From Bacteroidales bacterium (lineage in GTDB: Bacteria > Bacteroidota > Bacteroidia > Bacteroidales > UBA7960): a stretch of DNA of 35,590 bases. The stretch is from NCBI GenBank assembly GCA_003559475.1, contig PWLF01000124.1:1-35590 (forward strand), written 5' to 3'. Shown here piece after piece: positions 950-25,800 of this stretch. How positions within the stretch are numbered: the stretch's first letter is position 1; each line of letters starts with the position of its first letter. The position numbers were made by a program, and so were the translations under genes. Under the pieces are notes generated by a model. That model saw nothing but the letters and a program-made list of their open reading frames with translations, had not been told where the DNA came from and did not search any database.

Positions 950-1948
950 TTATACTGCCGGTAATTTTTTGATTTTATTCATAAGAATATCAAATTCTTC
1001 AAAATTAAGAGATTGTTGTCCGTCAGAAAGAGCTGTTTCCGGCTCATTATGAATTTCAACAATTGCTCCATCTGCTCCTGCGACAAGTGCTGCGAGTGTT
1101 ATTTTATCCACATGTTGACGAATTCCAATTCCGTGAGATGGGTCTGCAATTACAGGCAAATGGCTTTTTTCTTTCAAAACCGGAATTGCGTTAATATCAA
1201 AAGTGTTTCTGTATGCTTTTTCAAAAGTTCTCATTCCTCTTTCACACAATATAATTTTTTCATTTCCTGCATAAAACACATACTCTGCCGACTGCAACAA
1301 TTCACTAATTGACCCGGAAATACCTCTTTTTAACATAACCGGTTTATCAACTTTGCCAAGTGCATCAAGCAAATTAAAATTTTGCGTATTTCTTGCCCCA
1401 ACCTGAAAAATATCCACATAATCAACCATTTGCTCAATTTGGGAAACCTGCATAACCTCTGTTATTATCTTAATATTATTTGCTTTACAAACAGAGTAAA
1501 ACATTTTTAAACCTTCTATTCCTAAACCTCTAAAAGCATACGGCGAACTTCTGGGCTTAAACACCCCTCCTCTCATAATTTTAATATTATGCTTTAATAG
1601 TTGTTTGACGGTTTTTTCAACCTGCTCTTCGCTTTCAATTGAGCAAGGCCCCGCCATTAAGGTAAAGCCGTTTGAGCCAACAGTAACTCCATCTCCAATA
1701 TCTATGACAGTTGGATTAACCTTCCATTTCTTCGACACAAACTTGTAAGGGTCAGTTACTCTATGAACATCTTTTACTCCCTCAATATTACCTATCAGCC
1801 GGATATCAACATCTTTTGATACTATACCAACTATATAGTCATTAAACTGAGTTGAAATTTCAGAAGTTTTAACATTGTTTTCAGTTAAAATATCATTTAA
1901 CTTTTCCCTGTCTTTTTTAGAGATTTTACTATCTAATTGTATAATCAT
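950..1948 (-). CDS. aroF: 3-deoxy-7-phosphoheptulonate (DAHP) synthase
   Basis: First enzyme of the shikimate pathway; it condenses phosphoenolpyruvate and erythrose 4-phosphate. The 332-residue protein has an N-terminal ferredoxin-like regulatory domain (about 1-72) followed by a KDO8P-synthase-like TIM barrel. Visible motifs are GPCSIES at 100-106 and KPRSSPYAFRG at 131-141, which bind phosphoenolpyruvate and metal. This is the short Thermotoga/Bacillus type of DAHP synthase; in characterised relatives the N-terminal domain mediates feedback inhibition by aromatic amino acids. Its start overlaps the trpA stop by 4 nt, so it is the last gene of the trp operon and should be translationally coupled to trpA. 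Placing the pathway's entry enzyme under trp control lets chorismate supply rise when tryptophan is short. There is no chorismate mutase domain. Confidence 0.93.
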   Translation of the reverse strand: MIIQLDSKISKKDREKLNDILTENNVKTSEISTQFNDYIVGIVSKDVDIRLIGNIEGVKDVHRVTDPYKFVSKKWKVNPTVIDIGDGVTVGSNGFTLMAGPCSIESEEQVEKTVKQLLKHNIKIMRGGVFKPRSSPYAFRGLGIEGLKMFYSVCKANNIKIITEVMQVSQIEQMVDYVDIFQVGARNTQNFNLLDALGKVDKPVMLKRGISGSISELLQSAEYVFYAGNEKIILCERGMRTFEKAYRNTFDINAIPVLKEKSHLPVIADPSHGIGIRQHVDKITLAALVAGADGAIVEIHNEPETALSDGQQSLNFEEFDILMNKIKKLPAV

Positions 1949-2718
1949 GGTTTAATACTTTTTATAAATTTTTGAACATTTTCAAATGATAGACTGTTTT
2001 CTGCTAAATTTTTAATAAAAGCACTTCCAATAATTGCTCCGCTGCTGTACTTGCAAGCACTATCAAATGTCTCTTTATTATAAATGCCAAATCCTGTTAA
2101 CCTTGGGTTTTGTAAATTCAAATCATTAATTCTTTTAAAATATGAAGTTCTGTCACTTATACTTTTGTTTGCCCCTGTGACGCTATCAGAAGAGACCATA
2201 TACAAGAAGCCATTGCTTTGCTTATCAATCAATTCAGCTCTTTTATCAGAAGTTTGAGGAGTTATCAGAAATATTTTAGAAAGATTTGATTTTAAAAAAT
2301 ATTTTTTAACTCTATCATTGTAATACTCTATTGGCATATCAGGAATAATTGCACCATCAATTCCTATTTGGCTACAGATTTCAGCAAATTCTTGCTCTCC
2401 GTATTGCAAAACGACATTATGATAACCCATTAACACAAGAGGGACTTCGGTTATTTTTCTTATATCTTTTAATTGTTCAAAAAGCACTTTTAGTGTCATC
2501 CCATTCTCAATAGCTTTTTTGCTACTTTCTTGAATAACCGGGCCATCAGCTAAAGGATCTGAAAAAGGGAACCCGACTTCTATGATATCAACTCCGGCTT
2601 TTGATAAATAATCAATAATATCAACCGTATCATTAAGCGATGGATAACCTGCTGTAAAATATACAGAAAGTATATCCTTATTTTTTCTTTTAAAAAGTTT
2701 TGTTATTCTATTTTCCAT
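1945..2718 (-). CDS. trpA: Tryptophan synthase alpha chain
   Basis: Cleaves indole-3-glycerol phosphate to indole and glyceraldehyde 3-phosphate and passes indole to the beta subunit. The 257-residue length is normal. The catalytic acids are present in family context: Glu47 in the IEVGFPFSDP segment and Asp58 in DPLADGP. A phosphate-binding GFGI segment appears near the C-terminal third. It lies 4 nt after the trpF/trpB fusion gene and overlaps aroF by 4 nt, so the three are almost certainly co-transcribed. Nothing unusual is seen. Confidence 0.96.
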   Translation of the reverse strand: MENRITKLFKRKNKDILSVYFTAGYPSLNDTVDIIDYLSKAGVDIIEVGFPFSDPLADGPVIQESSKKAIENGMTLKVLFEQLKDIRKITEVPLVLMGYHNVVLQYGEQEFAEICSQIGIDGAIIPDMPIEYYNDRVKKYFLKSNLSKIFLITPQTSDKRAELIDKQSNGFLYMVSSDSVTGANKSISDRTSYFKRINDLNLQNPRLTGFGIYNKETFDSACKYSSGAIIGSAFIKNLAENSLSFENVQKFIKSIKP

Positions 2719-2722
2719 AATT

Positions 2723-4537
2723 TTAATTTTTACAATTATTATCCTTCAAATACTCCTGATAAATTTCCATATCTTTTTCACCTCTACCCGAAAGATTAAC
2801 TACTACCACATCATTTTTTTTAAACTTCATTTTATTTAAATATGCTAAAGCATGAGCTGATTCGAGAGCAGGGATAATCCCTTCTTTTTTAGAAAAGTCA
2901 AAAGCTGCATCTAATGCTTCTTTATCAACAACACTAGTAACCTCTATACTATTTGTATCATAGAGGTATGCGTGAGCCGGTCCTATTCCGGGATAATCTA
3001 AGCCGGCAGAAACAGAGTGAGGCTCAACTATTTGTCCATCTTCAGTTTGCATAAGATAAGTTTTGCTTCCATGAATAATCCCTTTTTTGCCAAGAGTGAT
3101 ACTAGCAGCTGTTTTTCCGGAATTTACTCCCTTTCCTCCTGCTTCGACAGCAATTAACTTCGTTTTTTCATTGTTAATAAAATGATAAAATGCCCCAATA
3201 GCGTTGCTTCCTCCTCCAATGCAGGCAATAACATAATCCGGATCTTCACTGCCTGTTTTTGTTTTAAGTTGCTGCTTGATTTCTCTGCTGATAACAGACT
3301 GAAAACGAGTGACCATATCTGGGTAAGGATGAGGACCAACTATAGAACCTAATAAATAATAGGTATCAACAGGATTGTTTATCCATTCTCTGATAGCATG
3401 GTTAATAGCATCTTTTAATGATTTACTGCCACCATCTGCAGCTACAATTTCAGCTCCAAGTAACTTCATACGATCAACATTGTTAGCTTGTCTTTTAATA
3501 TCCTTTTCACCCATATAAATAGTGCAAGAAATTTCAGCTAAAGCACATGCAGTAGCAGTTGCAACACCATGTTGTCCTGCTCCGGTTTCTGCAATAACTC
3601 TTTTTTTGTTAAGTTTCTTTGCAAGCAATACCTGCCCCAGTGTATTATTTAGCTTATGAGAACCTGTATGATTAAGGTCTTCTCTTTTTATAAAAATATT
3701 TGCAGAATATTTTTTTGACAAACTTTCAGAATAAAACAAAGGAGTTGGTCTTCCTGCATAATCATTTAACAAAGAGGCATATTCACTAACAAAGTTTTCT
3801 GAATTAATAATTTCCAAATAATTATCCTGCAGTTCTTTAACGTTGGGATAAAGCATTTCAGGAATAAATGCGCCTCCATATTCACCATAATATCCGTTGT
3901 TGTCCGGTTCAATATATTTCATATGTATAATTTTAATTATTTTATTTGTTTTCTCTTTTGATTTGTATCCATAAGACGTTTCCAGTTTGCTGTTTAAATC
4001 AATACCCGAAAGCATAGGATGTTTAAATTTTAATACTTTATCAATGTTATCTAATCCAATTCCTCCGCTTAAGAAAAAGGGTTTTTGAATATTATATTTG
4101 TTTAAAATTTCCCAATTGAAGGTTTTCCCTGAGCCTCCATAATTAATATCTTTCGTATCAAACAGAAAAAATTCGCAAAAATCTTTATATTCATTTAACT
4201 TATAAAAGTCAAATGATTCATCAATACCAAAAGCTTTAATAATTTTGATATTTTCTAAAAAAAGACTCTTACAGTATTCAGGACTTTCGTTTCCATGAAT
4301 TTGAGCATAATCAAATCCATAATAATTCATTATTTCTGTAACTTCTTCCAAATCTTGATTTACAAAAACAGCAACCGTTTTGATGCTATCAGGCAAATAT
4401 TTTAATATTGATTTATCGAGTTTTTTTACAACTCTTTTTGATTTTTCATAAAAAATAAAACCTAAAAAGTCTGGTTTTAATGCAGCAATTTGTTTAATAT
4501 TTTTACTCTCTCTTAATCCGCAAATTTTAATGTTCAT
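2723..4537 (-). CDS. trpF/trpB: TrpF-TrpB fusion: phosphoribosylanthranilate isomerase / tryptophan synthase beta chain
   Basis: One open frame of 604 codons encodes two enzymes that are usually separate. Residues 1-205 are TrpF (phosphoribosylanthranilate to CdRP), with KICGL at 4-8, catalytic Cys6 and Asp127, GGSGKTFNW at 134-142 and SGGI at 157-160. Residues 206-604 are TrpB (indole plus serine to tryptophan), with the PLP lysine Lys295 in HTGSHKLNN, the ETGAGQHG loop and a C-terminal GGGSNAIG phosphate cup. There is no stop between the halves and almost no linker. Met206 lies exactly where a free TrpB would begin, so a second product from an internal start is possible; I see no Shine-Dalgarno before it. 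A 226-nt gap separates it from trpC upstream, and trpA follows after 4 nt. Confidence 0.95.
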   Translation of the reverse strand: MNIKICGLRESKNIKQIAALKPDFLGFIFYEKSKRVVKKLDKSILKYLPDSIKTVAVFVNQDLEEVTEIMNYYGFDYAQIHGNESPEYCKSLFLENIKIIKAFGIDESFDFYKLNEYKDFCEFFLFDTKDINYGGSGKTFNWEILNKYNIQKPFFLSGGIGLDNIDKVLKFKHPMLSGIDLNSKLETSYGYKSKEKTNKIIKIIHMKYIEPDNNGYYGEYGGAFIPEMLYPNVKELQDNYLEIINSENFVSEYASLLNDYAGRPTPLFYSESLSKKYSANIFIKREDLNHTGSHKLNNTLGQVLLAKKLNKKRVIAETGAGQHGVATATACALAEISCTIYMGEKDIKRQANNVDRMKLLGAEIVAADGGSKSLKDAINHAIREWINNPVDTYYLLGSIVGPHPYPDMVTRFQSVISREIKQQLKTKTGSEDPDYVIACIGGGSNAIGAFYHFINNEKTKLIAVEAGGKGVNSGKTAASITLGKKGIIHGSKTYLMQTEDGQIVEPHSVSAGLDYPGIGPAHAYLYDTNSIEVTSVVDKEALDAAFDFSKKEGIIPALESAHALAYLNKMKFKKNDVVVVNLSGRGEKDMEIYQEYLKDNNCKN

Positions 4538-4763: not shown

Positions 4764-5573
4764 TCATATTTTATACTCTGTTGATAATTTTGAAATCTGC
4801 TTCACCAGTTCCTTGCATTTTTCAGCAGGATCACTATGCTTCATAAAGTACTCTCCTATCAAAAATCCATCAAAGCCGTTTTCTTTAAGCAGTTTTATAT
4901 TTTCTGCCGATTCTATACCACTTTCAGCTATTTTTATAATATTTTCCGGCATAAAACTGCTCAACTCAATACTTTTTTGAATATCAACATCGAAAGTATT
5001 TAAGCTGCGATTATTAACTCCCACAATATCAACATCTTCTATGCAAATATCATCCAATTCTTCTTTCTCATGAATTTCTAATAATATTTCCATTCCCAAG
5101 TTTTTTGCAAGTTTCGCCAAGCCTTTTATTTCAGTAGGTTTTAACATTTTAGCTATTAACAAAATTGTGTCAGCACCTTTTGATTTTGCTTCAATTACCT
5201 GATAATCATCAATTATAAAGTCTTTTCGTAATATCGGGCAATAGTTAAATTTTCTAGCTATTTCAATATCACTTTTTTTAGCTCCAAAAAAATACTCATC
5301 AGTGATTATAGACAATGCTGAAGCGCCTGCCTGCATATATCCAATACTTATACTTTCAACATCAGCATATTTATTAATAAACCCTTTTGAAGGCGATTTA
5401 CGTTTGAATTCCGCAATAATACCACTTCGTTCAGGGTCTTTTATATATTTTTTTAGAGAAACACACTCAGTGTTAAAATAAACTGATCTTTCAAGTAGTT
5501 TTACAGGATAAAGCTCCTTTTTCTCAATTATTTCCTTGATTTTATGCTCTTTAATCTTTTCTAATATTGTCAT
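4764..5573 (-). CDS. trpC: Indole-3-glycerol phosphate synthase
   Basis: Closes the indole ring by converting CdRP to indole-3-glycerol phosphate. The 269-residue single-domain protein matches the usual family length and is not fused to TrpF. The hallmark IAEFKRKSPSKG lies at 53-64 and includes catalytic Glu55 and Lys57; LRKDFI near 117 holds a second conserved lysine, and GVNNRSL and ESGI segments complete the barrel. Its start overlaps trpD by 4 nt, indicating translational coupling. Downstream comes a 226-nt repeat-bearing gap before the trpF/trpB fusion gene. Confidence 0.95.
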   Translation of the reverse strand: MTILEKIKEHKIKEIIEKKELYPVKLLERSVYFNTECVSLKKYIKDPERSGIIAEFKRKSPSKGFINKYADVESISIGYMQAGASALSIITDEYFFGAKKSDIEIARKFNYCPILRKDFIIDDYQVIEAKSKGADTILLIAKMLKPTEIKGLAKLAKNLGMEILLEIHEKEELDDICIEDVDIVGVNNRSLNTFDVDIQKSIELSSFMPENIIKIAESGIESAENIKLLKENGFDGFLIGEYFMKHSDPAEKCKELVKQISKLSTEYKI

Positions 5574-6562
5574 GATAAATTTTTTAATGTGTTAAACGAA
5601 TTTAATGCTTTAAGTCCATATAGTGAATCTTTTGCCATTTCCAAACAATTACCGATGTCAAGTTTATTATTATAAGTTTTTATTGCAATAGCTGCGTTAG
5701 CTATTACAACATTATTTTGACTTTGATTTCCTTTACCTTTAATAATTTTATCAAATATTTCAGCACTTTGTTCCTTTGTACTGCCTCCATGTATATCTTC
5801 ATAGTTAACTTTTTCAAAGCCGAAATAATCAGGAGAAACAACAATTTCTTTATCTCGGGAAAATATTTTAGAATTGCCGGTTAATGATATTTCATCAAAA
5901 CCATCTAGTGCATACACAATTGAGTAATCAGTATCCGTATCCTGGAACAAATAATTATATATTCTTCCCAGCTCAAGATTAAAAACACCTGTCAGTTGTT
6001 TTTTAGGGTTAGCTGGGTTTACAAGTGGTCCCAGCATATTAAAAAACGTTTTAACGCCCAATTGTTTTCTAACCGGAGCGACTTCTTTCAAAGCCGGATG
6101 AAAAAACGGGGCATGCATAAAGCAAATATTTGCTTCATCCATTTGTTGTTTCAGTTTTTTTTCTTCTGTTTGAAATTTTACTCCCAGGTGCTCCAATACA
6201 TTTGAAGATCCGGATACTGATGACACCCCGTAATTTCCGTGCTTTGCGACAGGTATGCCGGCACCGGCAGTAACGAAAGAAGCTAATGTAGAAATATTAA
6301 ACGTGTTTTTACCATCACCTCCCGAACCGCATAAATCAATGGCTTCATAAGGAGAAAGATCTATGCCGGCAGATAATTCCAACAGAGCTTCACGAAAACC
6401 TTTTAGCTCTTCCAGAGAAATACTGCGCATTATAAAAGCAGTTAAAAATGAAGCAATTTGATAGTGATTATATTTTCCGGAAGCTATATCAGTTAAAATT
6501 ACTTTTGCTTCATCTTTGCTAAATGATTTGTACTGATACAAATGTTCAAGAATTTCTTTCAT
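5570..6562 (-). CDS. trpD: Anthranilate phosphoribosyltransferase
   Basis: Transfers the phosphoribosyl group of PRPP to anthranilate. The 330-residue protein has the glycine-rich PRPP loop CGSGGD at 78-83 followed by KNTFNIST, and KHGN at 107-110. It begins directly with the helical N-terminal domain of TrpD, so no glutamine amidotransferase (TrpG) domain is fused to it. It starts 2 nt after trpE and overlaps trpC by 4 nt. The absence of trpG between trpE and trpD is notable, because that is a common position for it. Confidence 0.95.
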   Translation of the reverse strand: MKEILEHLYQYKSFSKDEAKVILTDIASGKYNHYQIASFLTAFIMRSISLEELKGFREALLELSAGIDLSPYEAIDLCGSGGDGKNTFNISTLASFVTAGAGIPVAKHGNYGVSSVSGSSNVLEHLGVKFQTEEKKLKQQMDEANICFMHAPFFHPALKEVAPVRKQLGVKTFFNMLGPLVNPANPKKQLTGVFNLELGRIYNYLFQDTDTDYSIVYALDGFDEISLTGNSKIFSRDKEIVVSPDYFGFEKVNYEDIHGGSTKEQSAEIFDKIIKGKGNQSQNNVVIANAAIAIKTYNNKLDIGNCLEMAKDSLYGLKALNSFNTLKNLS

Positions 6563-6564
6563 AA

Positions 6565-7956
6565 TTAAATTGTTTTTGCCAATTCAACAGCTTTTCTTAA
6601 AGCCGATAATTTATTATTTACTTCATTTAATTCATTTTCAGGTATTGATTTAGAAACAATTCCGCAACCTGCTTGGTATTTTAACTCATTATTTTTACTA
6701 ATGAATGACCTTATAAAAATTGCGTGATTCAGTTCCCCGTTAAAACCGATAAATCCTATTGCCCCACCATATATCCCTCTGTTATCAGGCTCATTTTCAT
6801 CAATTATTTCCATAGCTTTGTATTTTGGTGCTCCGGAAAGAGTCCCGGCAGGATATGTCTCAGCAAGTATCTTTATCGGATTATAACCTTTCTTAAGATT
6901 AGCCTTTACTTTTGATACCAAATGAATAACATGCGAATAATATTCAACTTGCTTAAACTTATCAACAACTACATTTTTCCCCGACTTACTAAGGTCATTT
7001 CTTGCCAGATCAACAAGCATAATATGCTCTGCAATTTCTTTAGGGTCTTTCAAAAGCTTTTCGGCAAGTTGCTTATCTTTTTCAATATCTCCTGTTCGCT
7101 TGAATGTTCCGGCTATAGGATTAATAACTGCTTCATTTTCGGCAATTTTCAGCTGAGCTTCAGGGGAAGAGCCAAAAAGCTTAAAATTTCCATAATCATA
7201 AAAAAATAAATAAGATGAAGGGTTTATTGATCGCAAAGCACGATAAACATTAAATTCATCCCCTTTAAATCGTCTTTTAAAAGACCTTGACATAACTACT
7301 TGTATCAAATTTCCTAAATTACAATGCTCAATCCCTTTTTTTATAATTGATAAAAACTTTGTATCACTTAAGTTTGATGTCTCTTCTCCTTCTGTTCTAA
7401 ACTTAAAAGTTGGAAAAGAACGATTGGCAATTATATCCTTTATAAAATCTAATTCCGAGTCCTCATCATTAAAAAGGTTTTCAATAATATATAATTCATT
7501 ATTAAAATGATTAATAGCAATTATATATTTAAAAACATGATACTGAACCAGTGGTATATCAGTATTAGTTTGCTTAAATTTTATATTTTCAAACAAAGGT
7601 ATTGCATCGTAAGACACATATCCGAATATTCCATTTGCGACAAACCCAAGGTTTAAATCTTTTGTCTTAAAGCTATTACAAAAATTATATAGCTTATCGG
7701 AAACGTCAATTTCATTGGTATTTAACACTTGTTCTTTACTGTCCGGATAAGTAATTTTTGTTTTATTATTTTCAACTAAAAATGAAGCTATCGGGTTAAA
7801 GCATAAGTATGAATAGCTATTCTCTTTACTCTTATGGTCGGAGCTTTCAAGTAAAAAGCTTTCCGGAAACTTATCACGAATCTTTAAATAAAGTTCCACC
7901 GGTGTATAAGTATCACTAAGCGTTTTTTCGTAATTTGTTTTAATGTTATATTCCAT
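6565..7956 (-). CDS. trpE: Anthranilate synthase component I
   Basis: Makes anthranilate from chorismate, the committed step to tryptophan. The 463-residue protein has the chorismate-binding fold: VVMSRSFKRRF in the middle, then PAGTLSGAPK and GIYGGAIGF, ending with the QAGCGIV segment. The N-terminal LLES motif at 35-38 corresponds to the tryptophan feedback site known in enteric TrpE, so the enzyme is probably inhibited by Trp. TrpE normally takes ammonia from a glutaminase partner (TrpG/PabA); none is encoded in this window. It is the first structural gene after the attenuator, with 44 nt between the terminator stem and the start codon. PabB and isochorismate synthase are relatives, but the operon context and LLES motif favour TrpE. 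Confidence 0.95.
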   Translation of the reverse strand: MEYNIKTNYEKTLSDTYTPVELYLKIRDKFPESFLLESSDHKSKENSYSYLCFNPIASFLVENNKTKITYPDSKEQVLNTNEIDVSDKLYNFCNSFKTKDLNLGFVANGIFGYVSYDAIPLFENIKFKQTNTDIPLVQYHVFKYIIAINHFNNELYIIENLFNDEDSELDFIKDIIANRSFPTFKFRTEGEETSNLSDTKFLSIIKKGIEHCNLGNLIQVVMSRSFKRRFKGDEFNVYRALRSINPSSYLFFYDYGNFKLFGSSPEAQLKIAENEAVINPIAGTFKRTGDIEKDKQLAEKLLKDPKEIAEHIMLVDLARNDLSKSGKNVVVDKFKQVEYYSHVIHLVSKVKANLKKGYNPIKILAETYPAGTLSGAPKYKAMEIIDENEPDNRGIYGGAIGFIGFNGELNHAIFIRSFISKNNELKYQAGCGIVSKSIPENELNEVNNKLSALRKAVELAKTI

Positions 7957-8000
7957 TTTAATAAAGTTGTTTTATAATTATTTGTAATTACTTTTAAATA

Positions 8001-8052
8001 AATTATAAAAGGGGAAGCCTGCTGGATTCAGCAGGCTTCCCCTTTTATAATT
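8001..8052 (-). terminator. trp attenuator terminator hairpin
   Basis: A perfect 24-bp inverted repeat around a 4-nt loop lies between the leader peptide and trpE. On the minus strand its GC-rich core is GGGGAAGCCTGCTG / CAGCAGGCTTCCCC, followed by TTTTATAATTTATTT, a good intrinsic-terminator shape. No plus-strand gene ends nearby that would need it, and it sits directly in front of trpE. Its loop and flanks contain CTGAATCC (8031-8024 on the minus strand), the exact complement of GGATTCAG at the end of the leader ORF. This supports an antiterminated attenuator. Confidence 0.88.
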
Positions 8053-8101
8053 TTTTATTAAAAATACACTACAGGCGACCTCTATCTGAATCCTTTCAGA
8101 T
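8024..8101 (-). promoter_or_regulatory. Competing RNA structures of the trp attenuator
   Basis: Three exclusive pairings can be read on the minus strand. (1) ATCTGAA at 8101-8095 pairs with TTCAGAT at 8090-8084, a 7-bp stem with AGGA loop at the end of the leader ORF. (2) GGATTCAG at 8093-8086 pairs perfectly over 8 bp with CTGAATCC at 8031-8024, disrupting both arms of the terminator top. (3) The terminator itself. A ribosome stalled on the Trp codons, whose last base is 10 nt before the first arm, would cover that arm, freeing GGATTCAG to act as antiterminator. A ribosome reaching the stop codon would mask it and allow termination. A further GGTGGCTT/AGGTCGCC pairing (8116-8109 with 8081-8074, including wobbles) is also possible. 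Confidence 0.72.
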
Positions 8102-8147
8102 TAAACTTAAGCCACCACCAAATGTTATTTTTAATATTATAGCTCAT
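8082..8147 (-). CDS. trpL: Trp leader peptide with three consecutive Trp codons
   Basis: A 21-codon ORF starts with ATG at 8147 and stops with TAG at 8084-8082. It begins MSYNIKNN, and codons 10-12 are TGG TGG TGG (8120-8112) after Ile9. Tryptophan is otherwise rare in proteins, so three in a row in a tiny ORF directly before a trp terminator fits a ribosome-stalling leader peptide. The stop codon overlaps the second arm of the leader hairpin at 8084-8101, as attenuation requires. As with most genes here, no Shine-Dalgarno is obvious before the ATG. A candidate promoter lies about 90 nt upstream. Confidence 0.85.
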   Translation of the reverse strand: MSYNIKNNIWWWLKFNLKGFR

Positions 8148-8235
8148 TATATAAAAATATGATTTCTTATGTTTTTATTTAATAAAACCCCATACTCTAA
8201 GTCCTTTAAGCATGAATATTTCATTTTTCAGGGTA

Positions 8236-8243
8236 CAAATATA
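8236..8243 (-). promoter_or_regulatory. Candidate trp operon promoter (-7 box)
   Basis: TATATTTG on the minus strand is a perfect match to the Bacteroidota -7 consensus TAnnTTTG. No TTTG is seen at the -33 position. Transcription would start near 8229, about 80 nt before the leader peptide. It lies back to back with the candidate plus-strand box at 8278-8285. Confidence 0.5.
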
Positions 8244-8277
8244 ATACTTTTCTAAAATGAAAATAAAAAATATTTTA

Positions 8278-8285
8278 TAAATTTG
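8278..8285 (+). promoter_or_regulatory. Candidate promoter of the small secreted protein gene (-7 box)
   Basis: TAAATTTG matches the TAnnTTTG consensus and lies 43 nt before the ATG at 8329. There is no clear -33 box. Confidence 0.45.
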
Positions 8286-8328
8286 CATAAGCTTTACTGC
8301 TAACTAAAAATTAATTGAGATAACTACA

Positions 8329-8595
8329 ATGACAAAATATATTATTTCCGCATTGCTGATTTTTTCTTTTTTTATAGAATTAGACAGCCAAAATGCCTTA
8401 AATAACAATGTAGAAGGCTTAAAAAAGCAACTGTTAGAAAAAAGTATTAATGAGCATATCAATACCACTAACCAACCTGTCAGAGATGACTTTTTGTTTC
8501 CTTTTGAAAAGAATCAAGATAGTGATTTTTTTAATTCTTATTTGAACAGAATTACTAATAAAGCATCAAAAACACAAAATTCTAAAAACACATAA
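8329..8595 (+). CDS. Small putative secreted protein of unknown function
   Basis: An 88-residue protein that I do not recognise. Residues 1-20 form a hydrophobic signal-peptide-like segment after MTKY, with plausible cleavage near Ser20-Gln21. The mature part is polar, rich in Asn, Lys and Ser, probably partly helical (around 25-45), and has no cysteine. It has its own candidate promoter and sits between the divergent trp leader and ruvB. The leader-like N-terminus and promoter spacing favour a real gene, but there is no family support. Confidence 0.5.
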   Translation: MTKYIISALLIFSFFIELDSQNALNNNVEGLKKQLLEKSINEHINTTNQPVRDDFLFPFEKNQDSDFFNSYLNRITNKASKTQNSKNT

Positions 8596-8639
8596 GACAC
8601 TTTAAAATCAAAAAAAACGTAATTCTATTTGTTTTTTAG

Positions 8640-8647
8640 TAACTTTG
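8640..8647 (+). promoter_or_regulatory. Candidate ruvB promoter (-7 box)
   Basis: TAACTTTG matches TAnnTTTG, 40 nt before the ruvB start; no TTTG at -33 spacing is seen. Confidence 0.4.
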
Positions 8648-8687
8648 CTAAGATTTGCGATATATTTTTTTGAAATGGCTTTTATAA

Positions 8688-9713
8688 ATGAACGATAATC
8701 TTGATCCAACAGCAAATAATTTAACACCGGAAGAAAAAGAGTTTGAAGTAACTCTTCGTCCGGATAATTTTGGTGATTTTACCGGTCAGAAGCAAGTTGT
8801 AGAAAATCTTAACGTTTTTGTTAAAGCTGCCAATCAGCGAAATGAAGCACTTGACCATGTATTGTTGCACGGACCACCCGGACTTGGGAAAACAACATTA
8901 GCACATATCATAGCTAATGAAATGAATGTTGGAATTAAACTAACCTCCGGGCCTGTTTTGGACAAACCGGGCGACCTGGCAGGGTTGCTAACCAACCTCG
9001 AAGACAACGATGTGCTGTTTATTGATGAAATACATCGCCTCAGTCCCGTAATAGAAGAATATCTTTATTCAGCCATGGAAGACTACCGAATAGATATTAT
9101 GATTGAAAGTGGTCCAAATGCCAGAAGTGTTCAAATCAAACTAAATCCTTTTACTCTTATCGGTGCAACCACAAGGTCAGGATTACTGACTTCCCCTCTT
9201 AGAGCAAGATTTGGAATAACATCCAGGCTAAATTATTACGACTCTAAATTGCTTAAAAAAATTATCTTACGCTCAGCTTCTATTCTTAAGGTTGATATAA
9301 GCAATGATGCAGCAGAAGAAATATCAAGACGCAGCCGTGGAACACCGAGAATTGCAAATGCACTGCTTAGAAGAGTCCGAGACTTTGCTCAGGTCAAAAG
9401 CGATGGAAATATTGATCTTGAAATATCTCTCTACGCTTTAAATGCACTTAACGTTGACAAACACGGATTGGATGAGATGGATAACAAAATTCTTAATACA
9501 ATTATTGAAAAGTTTAAAGGCGGACCGGTAGGACTTAACACCATTGCTACTGCTGTCGGTGAAGATCCGGGCACAATAGAAGAAGTTTATGAACCTTTCC
9601 TCATTCAGGAAGGATATCTGCAAAGAACCCCCAGAGGCAGAGAGGTAACTGAAAATGCCTTTTTGCACCTCGGAAAAATTAAATCATCATCACAAAGATC
9701 AATTTTTGATTAG
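8688..9713 (+). CDS. ruvB: Holliday junction branch-migration DNA helicase RuvB
   Basis: The AAA+ motor of the RuvAB complex, which drives branch migration of Holliday junctions during recombinational repair. The 341-residue length is normal. The Walker A motif GPPGLGKTT is at 62-70, the Walker B DEIH at 113-116, followed by GATTRSGLL (sensor 1 region), the PLRARFG arginine-finger segment and a C-terminal winged helix containing RTPRGREVT. The polar N-terminus up to [12 protein letters not shown] is typical of Bacteroidota homologues. queG follows 50 nt later on the same strand and may be co-transcribed. Confidence 0.97.
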
Positions 9714-19862: not shown

Positions 19863-22800
19863 CTATTGTACTATCATTCTTATATTAATTTTCCCATGTT
19901 TGCAACTAGTACAAGAAAGCACATAAACTCCTCTTTCCAGAGTTTGCTGCGGAAAAATTTCGAATACTCCTGAGCCACTACTTCTAACCTGAATAGTTTC
20001 ACTATGAAGAACATTTCCTATAACATCTGTTATTACAAAGCTTAATTCTTCATGTGCTTCAAAACCTCTAAGTCTAAGATAAAACATCCTTCCTCTGTTG
20101 GGATTTGGATACAAATCAACAGAAAGTTCACGTTTCAGGGTAGTATCCACATTAACTACTATAATATCACTATATTCATATTTGCCATCAAAATCTGTTT
20201 GTTTAAGTCTGTAATAAGATATTCCTTGATATGGATTCTCATCCCATTCTTCGTAAAACAGCACTGAATTGCTGTATCCATATTCAGCTTTACTGGGCAC
20301 TTCATTAACTTTCTCAAAGTTTTCGCCGTCTTTGGACCTTTGTATAGTAAAAAAGTCGTTATTTATTTCTGTAGCTGTTATCCACTGCAGGTTAACTTTT
20401 CCATTAACAACTTCGGCTTGGAAAGTCAAAAGACACACAGGCAAGGGGCTTTCTTCATCACTTGATGCTAAAGTAAAAAAGTTTTCGCTGAAAAATGATA
20501 CCTCTGTAGAAATTACTCTTCCTTCAGTTGGTTCGTCAGTAAATTCTGCAATACCTCCTTTAGATATCCACTGTGTATCATCCCATTTTGCAACTACTAG
20601 GTCATCAATATAATCGCCTACGTTGCTTTCTTCACCCCAATTAAGTTGTACATTTACATTTTCTCCTCCAGGGCCTTCGACGCTCCAGTATTCAGAATGA
20701 GATACCATCTCTATAGGGTCTTCAAAAGATTCCTGGTCCATTCCTCCTGCTATCGGTGGCTGAGCAAAATACTCTACTGTCCAATCCTGATTGTGTACTG
20801 ATACGTTATTAAGTCTTACAAATCTTTGTCTTCCTATTTTTCCAACCGGAAACAAGTTATTCCAATCATCTGCATTATAACTTCCGGAGCTTAATCTACG
20901 AGTAAGAGCTCCCTCTATCCTACTACTATCAAAATCAGAAGATACATTAAAAGGGCTGTTATTCTTAAGATGAAATTTGCTATTATTAAGAACAGTAATT
21001 ATTCCATCTTCTAAATAAATCATATCATCAATTTCCACATCACCATCAATTATAACGTGGAAATCATCCTTGTTGACATGGAATCTTTCAATTGCGGCAT
21101 CATCAACAAAATCTCCTGTTATAGTTTGGTTTTGAGAATTTCCTGTAAAGTATGTCCAGTTTGAAACATCATAAGATGCATCAGAATTGTCAATTGTTAA
21201 ATTTCCTCTTAACTCAAGTCTTCCATCAACTTCAAAGCTTGCATCATTTTCAATACTTAGATCACCATTAATAATATTCCATGGAGATGCTGTAGACGGC
21301 AATTCCTTTCTTCCACTATCTCTGACAATTAGATTTTGGAATTCGGTATATCTTTCAGATATCGTATAATTCAAATCTCCATAATAAACCATTGTACTAC
21401 CGGGAGTTCCATAAAAATCATCGAATCTTCCTGCGGGCAGGACGTTAGATTTAATCATTAAGGTTCCTCCGCCATAAACTTCTCTAAAGTTGTGTCCGTA
21501 TGTATCATCAAGGTCAAGCGAGCCCTCTAGTCCAAGTTCATAAACTATTCTTCTGTTCTCTTCGACTATAATATCATGTTCTTCCAGAATAAGTGCTCTA
21601 ACTCCGGAGGGCCCTCCTTCAGGTGCCGGGGTATCATCTTCTGAGTGTCTCCAGTTTGTGCCAACTTCCCAATCACCCGAATTAGTAGAAATATATAATG
21701 GAACCTCATCAGGTATATCCTCATCGGTTCCGGCTGTATATTCACCATCCAAATTACTTCTATTTTCGAAGTAAAAATAATCTTCATCATCAACAACAAA
21801 ATCTTCCGGGTATTTATGCCACTCAGCATTATAAAGTCTGGCGGCAATATATTCAGAAGCATCACCATTAACATCATTCGGGTGGTAATGGAAAAATAAG
21901 TCGCCATTAAAATCGCTTAACCCTTCCGTTTCAACATACCAATAATAATCTAAAATGTCCAGGTCATGTTCAGGATCAACAGTTATAGTCATGTGAGGAG
22001 AATTAACAGGCGTTACAGCTACTAATCCACTGCTGTTATTTTGAGAGTAATCAAGTTCAACGGGAGTAAATTTTCCTTCAACCCCAATAGGGAAAAAGAA
22101 ATCACCGCTACCTGTTCCAATTCTTTTAGCTAAACCCCGACTTTCATAAACCCCGTCAGTGATTATCATACGATTTGTTCCAAAATCTCCATTGTTTTCT
22201 ATTTCGCTATCAAGTCCGAGAGTAAGTCGGAATCCTCTCAAATCTAAAATACCGTTTGTAAGCACCAAATTATTTTCGAGTTCCATAGGTCCTTGAAGTA
22301 TAACTCTACTACCCGGATTATCAATTTCAAGCCTTCCAAAAGTACCATTTCCGTAAATTCTTTGATTAGATGAGCCAGCCATTTCTAATCCGCCTTCCAG
22401 TGGGTTATCACTATTAAAAGTAGCATAGTTATGAACATCTTTTAAGACTGTTACAGTATTTCCGCCATCATTAAAAGTACCCTGATTAAGATAAAAATAC
22501 TCTGCTACTTCAATATCCGTATCATTTTCAAGAGTAAGTTGTGATGAGGTATTTATAACGAAATTATTAAGTTCAAGGTCTCCTTCAATTGTTTGATTAA
22601 CTCCGTTCATTATGAGTGAATCTGTGTTAAAAGAAGAGTTGCCGTTATTAATAATATTTCCATTAATCGTAAGATTATAATCTTCATCTCCATCAAAAGC
22701 ATTAGAGCTATCTATGAAAAGATTGCCATTAAGTATGATATTATTATGTCTTAATTTAGCTATAACATCCGTTCCCATAATGTTAAGAGATGGCAATATT

Positions 22801-25800
22801 ATTCCTGAAGCGACATCAATTTCAATTATATCATTATTTGTTGATGCATTTCCTATGTTAATAACGGCATCATTACTAACATTAGAAGAAGTGGGTCTGA
22901 GATACAGAGGAGCTCTTTGTGGGTTTACACCTTGTGAGCTTGCTATTGTTAATTCTCCACCTGTCATATTAAATTCACTTCCCGGGTTGAATATTTCAAA
23001 TACTCCACGGCTATCTAAATTTGGGAGACCAGTTCCAACACTAACAGCACCCCCACTTTGCCTATATTTTAAAACTCCTATATTATCAGGACCTGATGTT
23101 CTCCCTCTTATTTGTTCTCCAACCTCTAAAATACCAGAATCTGCTATTTCAAATGTTGCATATCCTGTTGATGAATATGCAAGAGAGTTGTTGATTGACA
23201 TTTCTCCTGAATTATCAATTCGCAAAAATCCTTCTAAATCGACATTAGATCCTTCAGCATTGACTCTACCTTGAGAGATTGTCAGACCCGCCGTAGATTT
23301 AATCACATAAGGATCTCCTCCACTTGTAATTATGATATCAATATCCTCATGATTAAGAATCAACATCCCATTTATAAGCTGAATTGATTTTTCATCGGCA
23401 TCACCTCCAACAGGTCCACCAATATTGAAGTTAGAGTTGATAGTAAAGGAGGTGTTTACAGAGTTCCCTTTATTAATAGTTATATTATACAAATCGGCTG
23501 TTTCACCGGAATAGTAAATCCATGATTTGCTTTCTTCTCCAAGAATGTTTAATAATATTCTATCATGATTTGGCTCTGTAAAAAACCTCAATCCATTGGG
23601 GCTACCTCCCCCTCCTGTATTTTGTATTATGTTACCGTATAGATTGATGTTATGTTCCATTGTATTCGCAGAATTAGGGCTTCCTACGCGGATTAAAGCT
23701 CCTCTGTTATCAAGATTAAGGTTTTGATTAATAGTTATATTACGTTGATAGCCATCATTTGGAAAAACCAGTTCAGCTCCTCCTCCACTAGGGCTTCCTT
23801 CAATTGGATCTGTAATTTCAAACATTATAAAATCATTCCCTACATTAATATCTCCGGTTTCTTCATTGTTAAGGACAAGGTTTAAATTACCCAAAATCTT
23901 AAAGTTCCCTAATGCTGTAATATCTTTTGCTATTGTAACGTTGTGATTGTTTGATCCCCATCCATTGTTGGCAAAAATTATATTTGAAACAATATCAGGA
24001 GTATTTAAATAAGTTCGGTTAGCATCAAAATTCTCATAAACAATATATGTTGAGTCATTTGTCACAAAATCGCCCATATCCATTGATGTCAAGTCGGGGT
24101 CCCCTATTCTAATCCAAAACATACCTTCCCCTTCAACCCAGCCTGCTTCAAGCTCTCCTCCATTATCATTAATACACAAGGTCGGTCTAAATTGGAAGTT
24201 GGAACGGTATCTGCGAGGAACAGGGTTCCCATCCTCATCGGTCATTTGAGTAAATTGAATTTGTGCTACTTCTTCTTGAGTATTATTAATCCAAACACCA
24301 TGAGGAAGTCCACGTAAATCTTCTTTGGGATCATCCCAAGGGACCCATCCGATTACTGCTATATCACCGATTCGTGGATAATTGCCATTTCCGGCGTGAG
24401 GATTAGAACTAGAGTGAGGGTTATCCGGATCGAAGTCATTATGGTCTGAGCGAGTCCATGTATTATGATCTCTCCAATTGGGTTCTCTAGCTGCAACTCC
24501 TGTTGAAGAACCATGGTCTCTCGTATAATAAACACGGATATCTCCATTAAACATGGTTGTACGAGCTGCAGTAAATTCTCCTATTTCCAGTTCATTTATA
24601 TCATATGACAAATAATGTATAGGGCTATTGTCTATTAATTCACCAATTTGATTAGGATGCTCAGGAGAACGTATATTATTGACTATTTTGCCAACCACCT
24701 GGTTATGGTTATTCCAGTTATTAACACCCTCAAAATCATCCTCATAAGATCTAAACAAATTTAAAACATCAGGTGTTGATGAAAAACCGGAATGTCGAAC
24801 TCTCCAATAATATTGCAAGTATCTTTCCGGGCTTGCTGTTCCCAATGTAGGCAATCTGCTCGGCACTCCGTTTATTTGCAGATACCCGCCTCCTTCAGGC
24901 ACTCCTGAAAGGGTTGGCTCTGCATAAGCATAGCGTATGTGTTCACCATCAAAGTTCCATGTGCCTATGGGAAAATGATATGTTCCATTACCCTCACTTG
25001 GTATTTTCAAAGTTACACCTCTGTCAGAATGATTTCCTGCTGTAAGAATCAATTTATTATTAGAAAACTCTTCAGCTCCGGGGATATCATCAATATTTAG
25101 CACCTCTTCTTCTATTGTAATTCCCTGGTTTCCAATATCAAATATGCCTCTTCGTAAAGCAAGATTCCCTATGGAAATATCTGCAACACCTGTAAGAGAG
25201 ACACCGTTTGGATCATCAATAACAAGATTTCCAAACTCCGGCTGAGTTCCTGCCGGTGCTATAATTTGGTCTAAATCATTTAGTATAAGGAATCCATTTT
25301 GCTCTCCAATTATACCAATGGTTGATCTATTAATAACCGTTGCATCTTCCTGATCAATTATTATTGCAAAATCACCATAATCAAGAACGCCTCTATTTAC
25401 GATTAAATCATTTTCAATCAAAACGGGACTAACATCGAAAGGACCACCGTCATTAAGGTCAACATGCGGTCTTCCATCACTAACAATAGAAACTTTTCTT
25501 TCATGGACAGACTTATCAACAGTCAGGTCATAGAACTCTAACAGAAAATTGTCAACATTATTTGCAATATCAATAATTGCATCTTGATTGCCAAAAAATG
25601 TTGTTGTGTTTCCGTCATCATCATATATGCTATTATAATGTGCATTAGAGCCGGCTGTTTGTCCAAAATAGAAATTTCTTCCGACAAGCAAGTCATAATT
25701 GGTGCTTCCGTCAGACCTTCTGGGGTGAAAAATCACATTGTCTCCAATAAGCAGATCATTGCTAATTGTTAATTCACGTGTAAATCTAACATCAATATTT

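Follow-up and report, generated by a model that had tools for sequence, protein, structure and literature searches.

An attenuation study by Vitreschak et al. in 2004 is said to have included Bacteroidetes. The closest described system to the leader reported here is the Bacteroid-trp motif (Rfam RF01692), listed as cis-regulatory in Bacteroidetes by Weinberg et al. 2010 (PMC2864571). According to a 2019 study, the trp operon of Flavobacterium psychrophilum is preceded by a conserved Bacteroid-Trp RNA that resembles the E. coli leader (PMC6414381), and another paper reports strong hints of attenuation by leader peptides upstream of operons for amino-acid biosynthesis in this organism (PMC9723704). 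For Bacteroides thetaiotaomicron, short ORFs reminiscent of leader peptides have been described in 5' UTRs, in passages that do not mention trp (PMC7366714).

Here we analyse a leader found in the window, that is, the whole stretch of 35,590 nucleotides from a Bacteroidales genome. It stands before trpE on the minus strand and is highly likely to be a ribosome-mediated transcription attenuator, which would sense charged tRNA-Trp and control the trp operon. By its layout, it would very probably switch the trp genes off when tryptophan is plentiful. A sequence-only reading of this DNA had known of no characterised example in the phylum. Precedent does exist, in RF01692 and in F. psychrophilum (PMC6414381), while the statement stands for experimental demonstration: we found no measured Trp-dependent attenuation in the phylum in the open-licence literature searched.

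Results

The operon behind the leader

Directly downstream of the leader the genes run in the order trpE-trpD-trpC-trpFB-trpA-aroF.

6565..7956, minus strand: trpE, anthranilate synthase component I (TIGR00564 is the best NCBIfam match, below its cut-off with 407 bits against 518; PF00425 and PF04715 above theirs)
5570..6562, minus strand: trpD (TIGR01245 above cut-off)
4764..5573, minus strand: trpC (NF001377 above cut-off)
2723..4537, minus strand: trpF-trpB fusion in a single 604-codon frame (TIGR00263 and PF00697 above cut-off; one bit below the cut-off of the bifunctional model NF010376)
1945..2718, minus strand: trpA (TIGR00262 above cut-off)
950..1948, minus strand: DAHP synthase (3-deoxy-7-phosphoheptulonate synthase; aroF; NF006421 above cut-off)

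trpG is absent between trpE and trpD (6562-6565), where genome G034, the nearest relative, has a glutamine amidotransferase. trpF and trpB are separate in G034 and fused in the window. Five GATase-family matches occur in the genome, one of them stand-alone and of TrpG-like size (G000:C270, 41247-41801). A second trpE-trpG-trpD set of a different type (L126, G000:C250, 1177-4382; TrpE 40% identical) lies on a 4.4-kb contig that is possibly a contaminant; from its sequence, we read the gene beside this set as Hsp20-like. Elsewhere in the window, a 2977-residue ORF (19863-28796, minus) looks like a large secreted repeat protein, as far as its sequence suggests.

The elements of the leader, in the direction of transcription, are the following.

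8236..8243, minus strand: putative promoter -7 element TATATTTG of the TAnnTTTG type, inferred from the motif
8082..8147, minus strand: leader peptide ORF MSYNIKNNIWWWLKFNLKGFR, 21 codons from ATG at 8147 to TAG at 8084-8082, with start and Trp codons in register with RF01692
8112..8120, minus strand: three consecutive Trp (TGG) codons, the proposed sensing codons
8109..8116, minus strand: 5' side of the Trp-codon helix, GGTGGCTT, in the minimum-energy fold, opened by a modelled stalled ribosome
8095..8101, minus strand: arm 1, ATCTGAA, the apical part of the anti-antiterminator hairpin
8082..8093, minus strand: arm 2, consisting of GGATTCAG (8093-8086) and, past a bulged A, TAG (8084-8082), with arm 1 or the terminator top as partner
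8074..8081, minus strand: 3' side of the Trp-codon helix, AGGTCGCC, partner of 8116-8109 in the minimum-energy fold
8000..8053, minus strand: predicted intrinsic terminator, a 25-bp perfect stem with loop AATC and a 3' side ending in TTTTATAATTT
8024..8034, minus strand: arm 3, CTG followed by CTGAATCC, covering the top of the terminator 5' arm, the entire loop and the first 3'-arm base

The TAnnTTTG motif, Bacteroidetes-specific according to PMC6414381, has a single minus-strand match within 7950-8600, namely TATATTTG. If this is the promoter -7 element, transcription would start at about 8229. Near this supposed start lies a 25-aa ORF (8224-8147, minus), whose stop overlaps the leader start codon as TAATG; translational coupling to the leader is possible, as is chance. 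The leader ORF itself is as first read, with 21 codons and three successive TGG codons at 8120-8112, and it offers tandem codons for the regulated amino acid. In dinucleotide shuffles of the 245-nt stretch preceding trpE, a short ORF with three consecutive Trp codons (WWW) was obtained in 0/2000 cases, and one with two (WW) in 11/2000.

Terminator and alternative pairing

Between the leader ORF and the biosynthetic genes, the sequence predicts an intrinsic terminator. The hairpin is perfect, as had been read, and its size exceeds the 24 bp first given: 25 pairs enclose the loop AATC at 8053-8000, with a core of 14 bp, mostly G-C pairs, at 8042-8011. Folding of the 201-nt region gave z = -8.8, and none of 200 shuffles was equally good. 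On both strands of 7900-8700 we found 6 terminator-like sites against 0.2 expected, all of them registers of this one hairpin.

Such a hairpin could be a plain intrinsic terminator next to a chance Trp-rich ORF, merely insulating the trp operon or lowering its expression, and it does score as a terminator on both strands. We consider this explanation highly improbable. Neither strand has a listed gene terminating at the hairpin (ORF list; ORFs of at least 20 codons between 7960 and 8700), no plus-strand ORF of at least 100 codons precedes it, and ruvB, upstream of the leader at 8688, points away. Moreover, WWW was absent from all 2000 shuffles, and most of the relatives examined show this arrangement upstream of their trpE (see below).

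An attenuator needs the hairpin to have a competitor, and the leader contains one. Arm 1 (8101-8095) pairs perfectly with TTCAGAT (8090-8084), and all arms lie where the sequence-only reading had placed them. GGATTCAG (8093-8086) is the exact reverse complement of CTGAATCC (8031-8024). These 8 perfect base pairs had been recognised before, but the antiterminator extends beyond them: GGATTCAG and, past the bulged A, TAG pair with CTG-CTGAATCC, and shorter helices further down the 5' arm continue the pairing. The energy of this arm-2/terminator pairing, -22.8 kcal/mol, was equalled in 15/5000 shuffles. When the segment following the Trp codons was shuffled, GGATTCAG itself arose by chance in 17/20000 cases. 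Since an 8-mer with full complementarity to some part of the terminator 5' arm or loop appeared in 604/20000, the 8-mer complementarity alone is only moderately unlikely.

Position of the ribosome and order of folding

Folding was modelled with a masked ribosome footprint on RNAs of growing length, using two footprint sizes and two assumed transcript starts. A usual footprint has its edge 15 nt beyond the point where the P-site codon begins. The spacing of 10 nt between the third Trp codon and arm 1 is as had been measured. The related claim that a stalled ribosome masks arm 1 needs correction: if W1, W2 or W3 occupies the A site, this edge lies at 8108, 8105 or 8102, short of arm 1 (8101-8095); three arm 1 bases become covered, with the edge at 8099, only once W3 has passed to the P site. 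What is broken instead is the helix 8116-8109/8081-8074, which contains Trp-codon bases and is blocked at every modelled Trp-codon stall.

With the RNA free to 8024, the modelled probability (P) of the antiterminator was 0.98-1.00 for a ribosome positioned on the Trp codons, 0.68-0.71 without a ribosome, when it can form briefly, and 0.00 with the stop codon in the A site. The corresponding values for RNA free to 8020 were 0.53-1.00, 0.03 and 0.00. Footprint masking, the form in which we ran the suggested folding with a blocked region, hence favours the antiterminator with a ribosome on the Trp codons at 8024-8020, and the value of 0.00 agrees with the earlier claim that a ribosome at the leader stop masks arm 2. 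In silico, and for RNA free to 8024-8020 only, the antiterminator arm would be masked at the leader stop and free on an earlier stall. At 8020, A-site occupancy by W1-W3 leaves the 7-bp apical hairpin as a competitor (modelled P 0.24-0.44).

With a ribosome on the Trp codons, the modelled P of the antiterminator was 0.00-0.58 at 8017 and at most 0.01 at 8014. With the free RNA extending past about 8017, equilibrium goes to the terminator in nearly all modelled states, so the switch would work only if the order of folding decides, that is, by a kinetic decision. In our modelling, this equilibrium win is a limit of the model and also a point against certainty.

We propose that, when Trp is ample, the ribosome would run to the leader stop and cover arm 2, and the terminator would form. 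When Trp is scarce, the ribosome would stall on one of the three Trp codons, opening the helix with 8081-8074. Arm 2 could then capture the emerging top and loop of the terminator and delay its folding, and the polymerase would enter trpE. If the leader were not translated, the entire leader hairpin would form, resulting in termination. The analysis establishes the sequences, their alternative pairings, the preservation of these pairings with altered letters in relatives and the predicted response to footprint masking; translation, stalling, termination and the Trp dependence of termination are what we infer from this architecture.

Trp-rich leaders in relatives

The comparison set consisted of the best 80 of 592 trpE-like loci from named Bacteroidota genomes. 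Leader ORFs were accepted with 5-60 codons and an ATG, GTG or TTG start within 500 nt upstream (L043 and L055 have less than 500 nt of upstream sequence available). A short ORF with WW was present upstream in 74/80 of these loci, compared with 3/80 on the reverse strand and with a mean of 2.2 and a maximum of 7/80 in 20 rounds of shuffling. WWW was found in 62/80, with 0 on the reverse strand and a mean of 0.05 in 20 rounds of shuffles. Six of the 80 had no WW ORF (L063, L067, L080, L083, L100 and L113). The Trp-rich short ORFs that the sequence-only reading proposed to look for upstream of trpE are conserved, and, judged by these ORFs, such leaders stand before trpE in most sampled Bacteroidota.

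In the window's own and related genomes, 27 of 30 loci were used (L030, L034 and L035 were excluded: split match, contig end, distant paralogue). A WW ORF was present in 19/27, the window and the doubtful L014 included. Among the other eight, four have less than 130 nt upstream, L013 and L015 have an RF01692 match above the cut-off about 1.3 kb further upstream, and L017 and L025 have neither a WW ORF nor an RF01692 match. L014 has an RF01692 match just below the cut-off about 1.4 kb upstream.

Conservation of the pairing was assessed at each locus between the segment after the Trp codons and the terminator 5' arm plus loop. A WW ORF followed by an accepted hairpin was present in 92/107 upstream regions. 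Seven of the 92 were dropped after the ranking was seen, their hairpin pick being judged wrong: L059, L069 and L071 had ranked badly, L099, L102 and L109 well, and L014 was mixed. The 85 remaining loci were thinned by similarity to 53 representatives. Own pairs were stronger than mismatched ones at every level, with -15.2 against -10.5 kcal/mol for cross pairs (all 92 loci), a mean of -15.4 against -10.7 kcal/mol for derangements (85 loci), and -15.6 against -10.4 kcal/mol with others' terminators (53 thinned loci), where 0/5000 derangements were as good and shuffled arm-2 segments averaged -9.9 kcal/mol. In the thinned set, the own pairing ranked in the best tenth in 31/53 loci, was the very best in 10/53 and fell in the worse half in 2/53. 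Against shuffled arm-2 segments, p was at most 0.05 in 34/53 and at most 0.2 in 47/53; in the other 6/53, more than one fifth of the shuffles paired as well as the real segment. The window leader (-22.8 kcal/mol) prefers its own terminator to all 91 others, and no other leader segment matches the window's terminator as strongly.

The letters of the pairing vary: the window has GGATTCAG/CTGAATCC, several other genomes in its family have GTGTTGA with TTGACAC or TTAACAC, and arms of a GTGA type occur in many Flavobacteriaceae. As own pairing is strong although the sequences differ widely, complementarity is kept despite the change of letters. The sequence-only reading had staked its case on complementarity of the GGATTCAG/CTGAATCC type in relatives, and this was found with changed sequence; Trp codons and alternative pairing are both conserved, the latter as pairing strength and not as column-by-column compensation. 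At least 3 loop bases were paired in 69/85 loci (a count with no control of its own). The other 16, mostly Chitinophagaceae and some Sphingobacteriaceae, pair best with the 5' arm alone or nearly so, and the loop-directed layout is therefore not universal. Trp-codon bases were predicted to pair downstream with a mean P of 0.72, reaching at least 0.5 in 76/85 loci, values that stand without a shuffled control.

The leader peptide could also act by translational or Rho-type control, like B. subtilis rtpA or E. coli tna, with the hairpin being secondary. The 25-aa ORF at 8224-8147, ending in TAATG over the leader start, makes such coupling possible. Nevertheless, leader and trpE are separated by a strong predicted intrinsic terminator that has an alternative pairing, and such pairings are kept in relatives; we give this explanation a very small chance. 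Binding of a protein or tRNA to the leader RNA, TRAP-like or T-box-like, is scarcely credible: its only support is that there is a leader and that it has a terminator, what recurs is a run of Trp codons in frame, TrpR (PF01371) and TRAP (PF02081) have no match in the genome (93.8% complete, so that their absence is not certain), and the window has no T-box match, either at Rfam cut-offs, where a tRNA is what it yields, or among the permissive matches.

The leader and the Rfam family

RF01692 matches the window leader with 26.4 bits, below the gathering cut-off of 49. The match is full-length (model positions 1-131), with start and Trp codons in register, and lies before trp genes. Its E-value was 0.28 in a 151-nt search (8025-8175), 0.56 in a 301-nt stretch and 1.4 in the genome. 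This leader is the best RF01692 match in the whole genome, which is weak by itself because an equally loose search gives weak matches in 7/14 control genomes. The 301-nt region has 57 permissive Rfam matches, all under their cut-offs; nine have higher bit scores than Bacteroid-trp, and many have lower E-values. Those to microRNA, sRNA and other families were set aside as hairpin-driven chance matches. Without the 3' side of the terminator (8025-8175), Bacteroid-trp is the sole match at E <= 0.3. No trp leader family other than RF01692 matched, even at permissive Rfam thresholds.

Across the order, RF01692 scores above the cut-off in 15/295 genomes. Among 20 WW-leader loci hand-chosen from the best 80 of 592 it does so in 3 (L047, L089 and L095), where the matches sit on the WWW leader preceding trpE, and among 14 further WW-leader loci in none.

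History of the operon

The ruvB gene beside the leader is 87-91% identical to that of three same-genus genomes. Searches of these three genomes, which are 89-96% complete, gave no trpE of this kind, the best matches being about 30% identical, and the sequence inspected around their ruvB contains none of the window's trp genes. The nearest TrpE is that of G034 (74%, partial), whose contig ends before the leader. The window TrpE is 65% identical to that of a MAG named Flavobacteriaceae, closer than to ten others of its own family. In the FastTree tree it is placed beside G034 (partial) and L036, with support of 0.74 and 0.31, and beside L049, with 0.96, and falls outside a clade of ten TrpE of its own family; with midpoint rooting, a wider node (0.95) joins both TrpE groups with L019 and L082. 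A trp operon not found in three same-genus genomes, together with a TrpE that is not closest to the ten others of its family, suggests transfer or differential loss. From these comparisons, operon and attenuator may have been transferred together; loss of the trp operon in the other same-genus species is a possible alternative.

Discussion

Ribosome-mediated trp attenuation, as first proposed for this locus, is well supported by the anatomy of the leader and its conservation in relatives, with a WW ORF in 74 of the best 80 of 592 loci and own pairings that beat derangements. The work supports leader-peptide attenuation of Trp synthesis from raw sequence in a divergent Bacteroidota genome.

We see about an even chance that most Bacteroidota trp attenuators share a layout beyond the Rfam model, in which the antiterminator starts on the terminator loop and the top of the 5' arm, often continues on the lower arm, and keeps its pairing across lineages with changed sequence. 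Chitinophagaceae and part of Sphingobacteriaceae, which use the 5' arm alone, would be exceptions. If this is true, the published RF01692 family recognises just a small part of a very widespread class of trpE leaders.

The window leader is best taken as a divergent trp attenuator of known type, and formal membership of RF01692 fails on score. Like Bacteroid-trp, it is a leader RNA before trp genes with Trp codons in the 5' side of a long helix. Unlike the window, the RF01692 model ends inside the terminator 5' arm (consensus ...AAAAAGGCUUGUC), without the terminator hairpin or the loop-directed antiterminator. The model catches few (3/20 and 0/14) of the leaders that stand before trpE in most sampled Bacteroidota, a result that would help annotation. 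The F. psychrophilum trp leader belongs to the same phylum and has the same proposed logic. The passages on it and on amino-acid operons report leaders from sequence and transcript structure, and contain no Trp-dependent termination assay.

E. coli trpL shares with the window tandem Trp codons, an anti-antiterminator, an antiterminator and a terminator, with the ribosome choosing among them. The window has three Trp codons against two in trpL, and its antiterminator, unlike that of trpL, spans the whole terminator loop. Many natural variants are available for testing how such an antiterminator acts.
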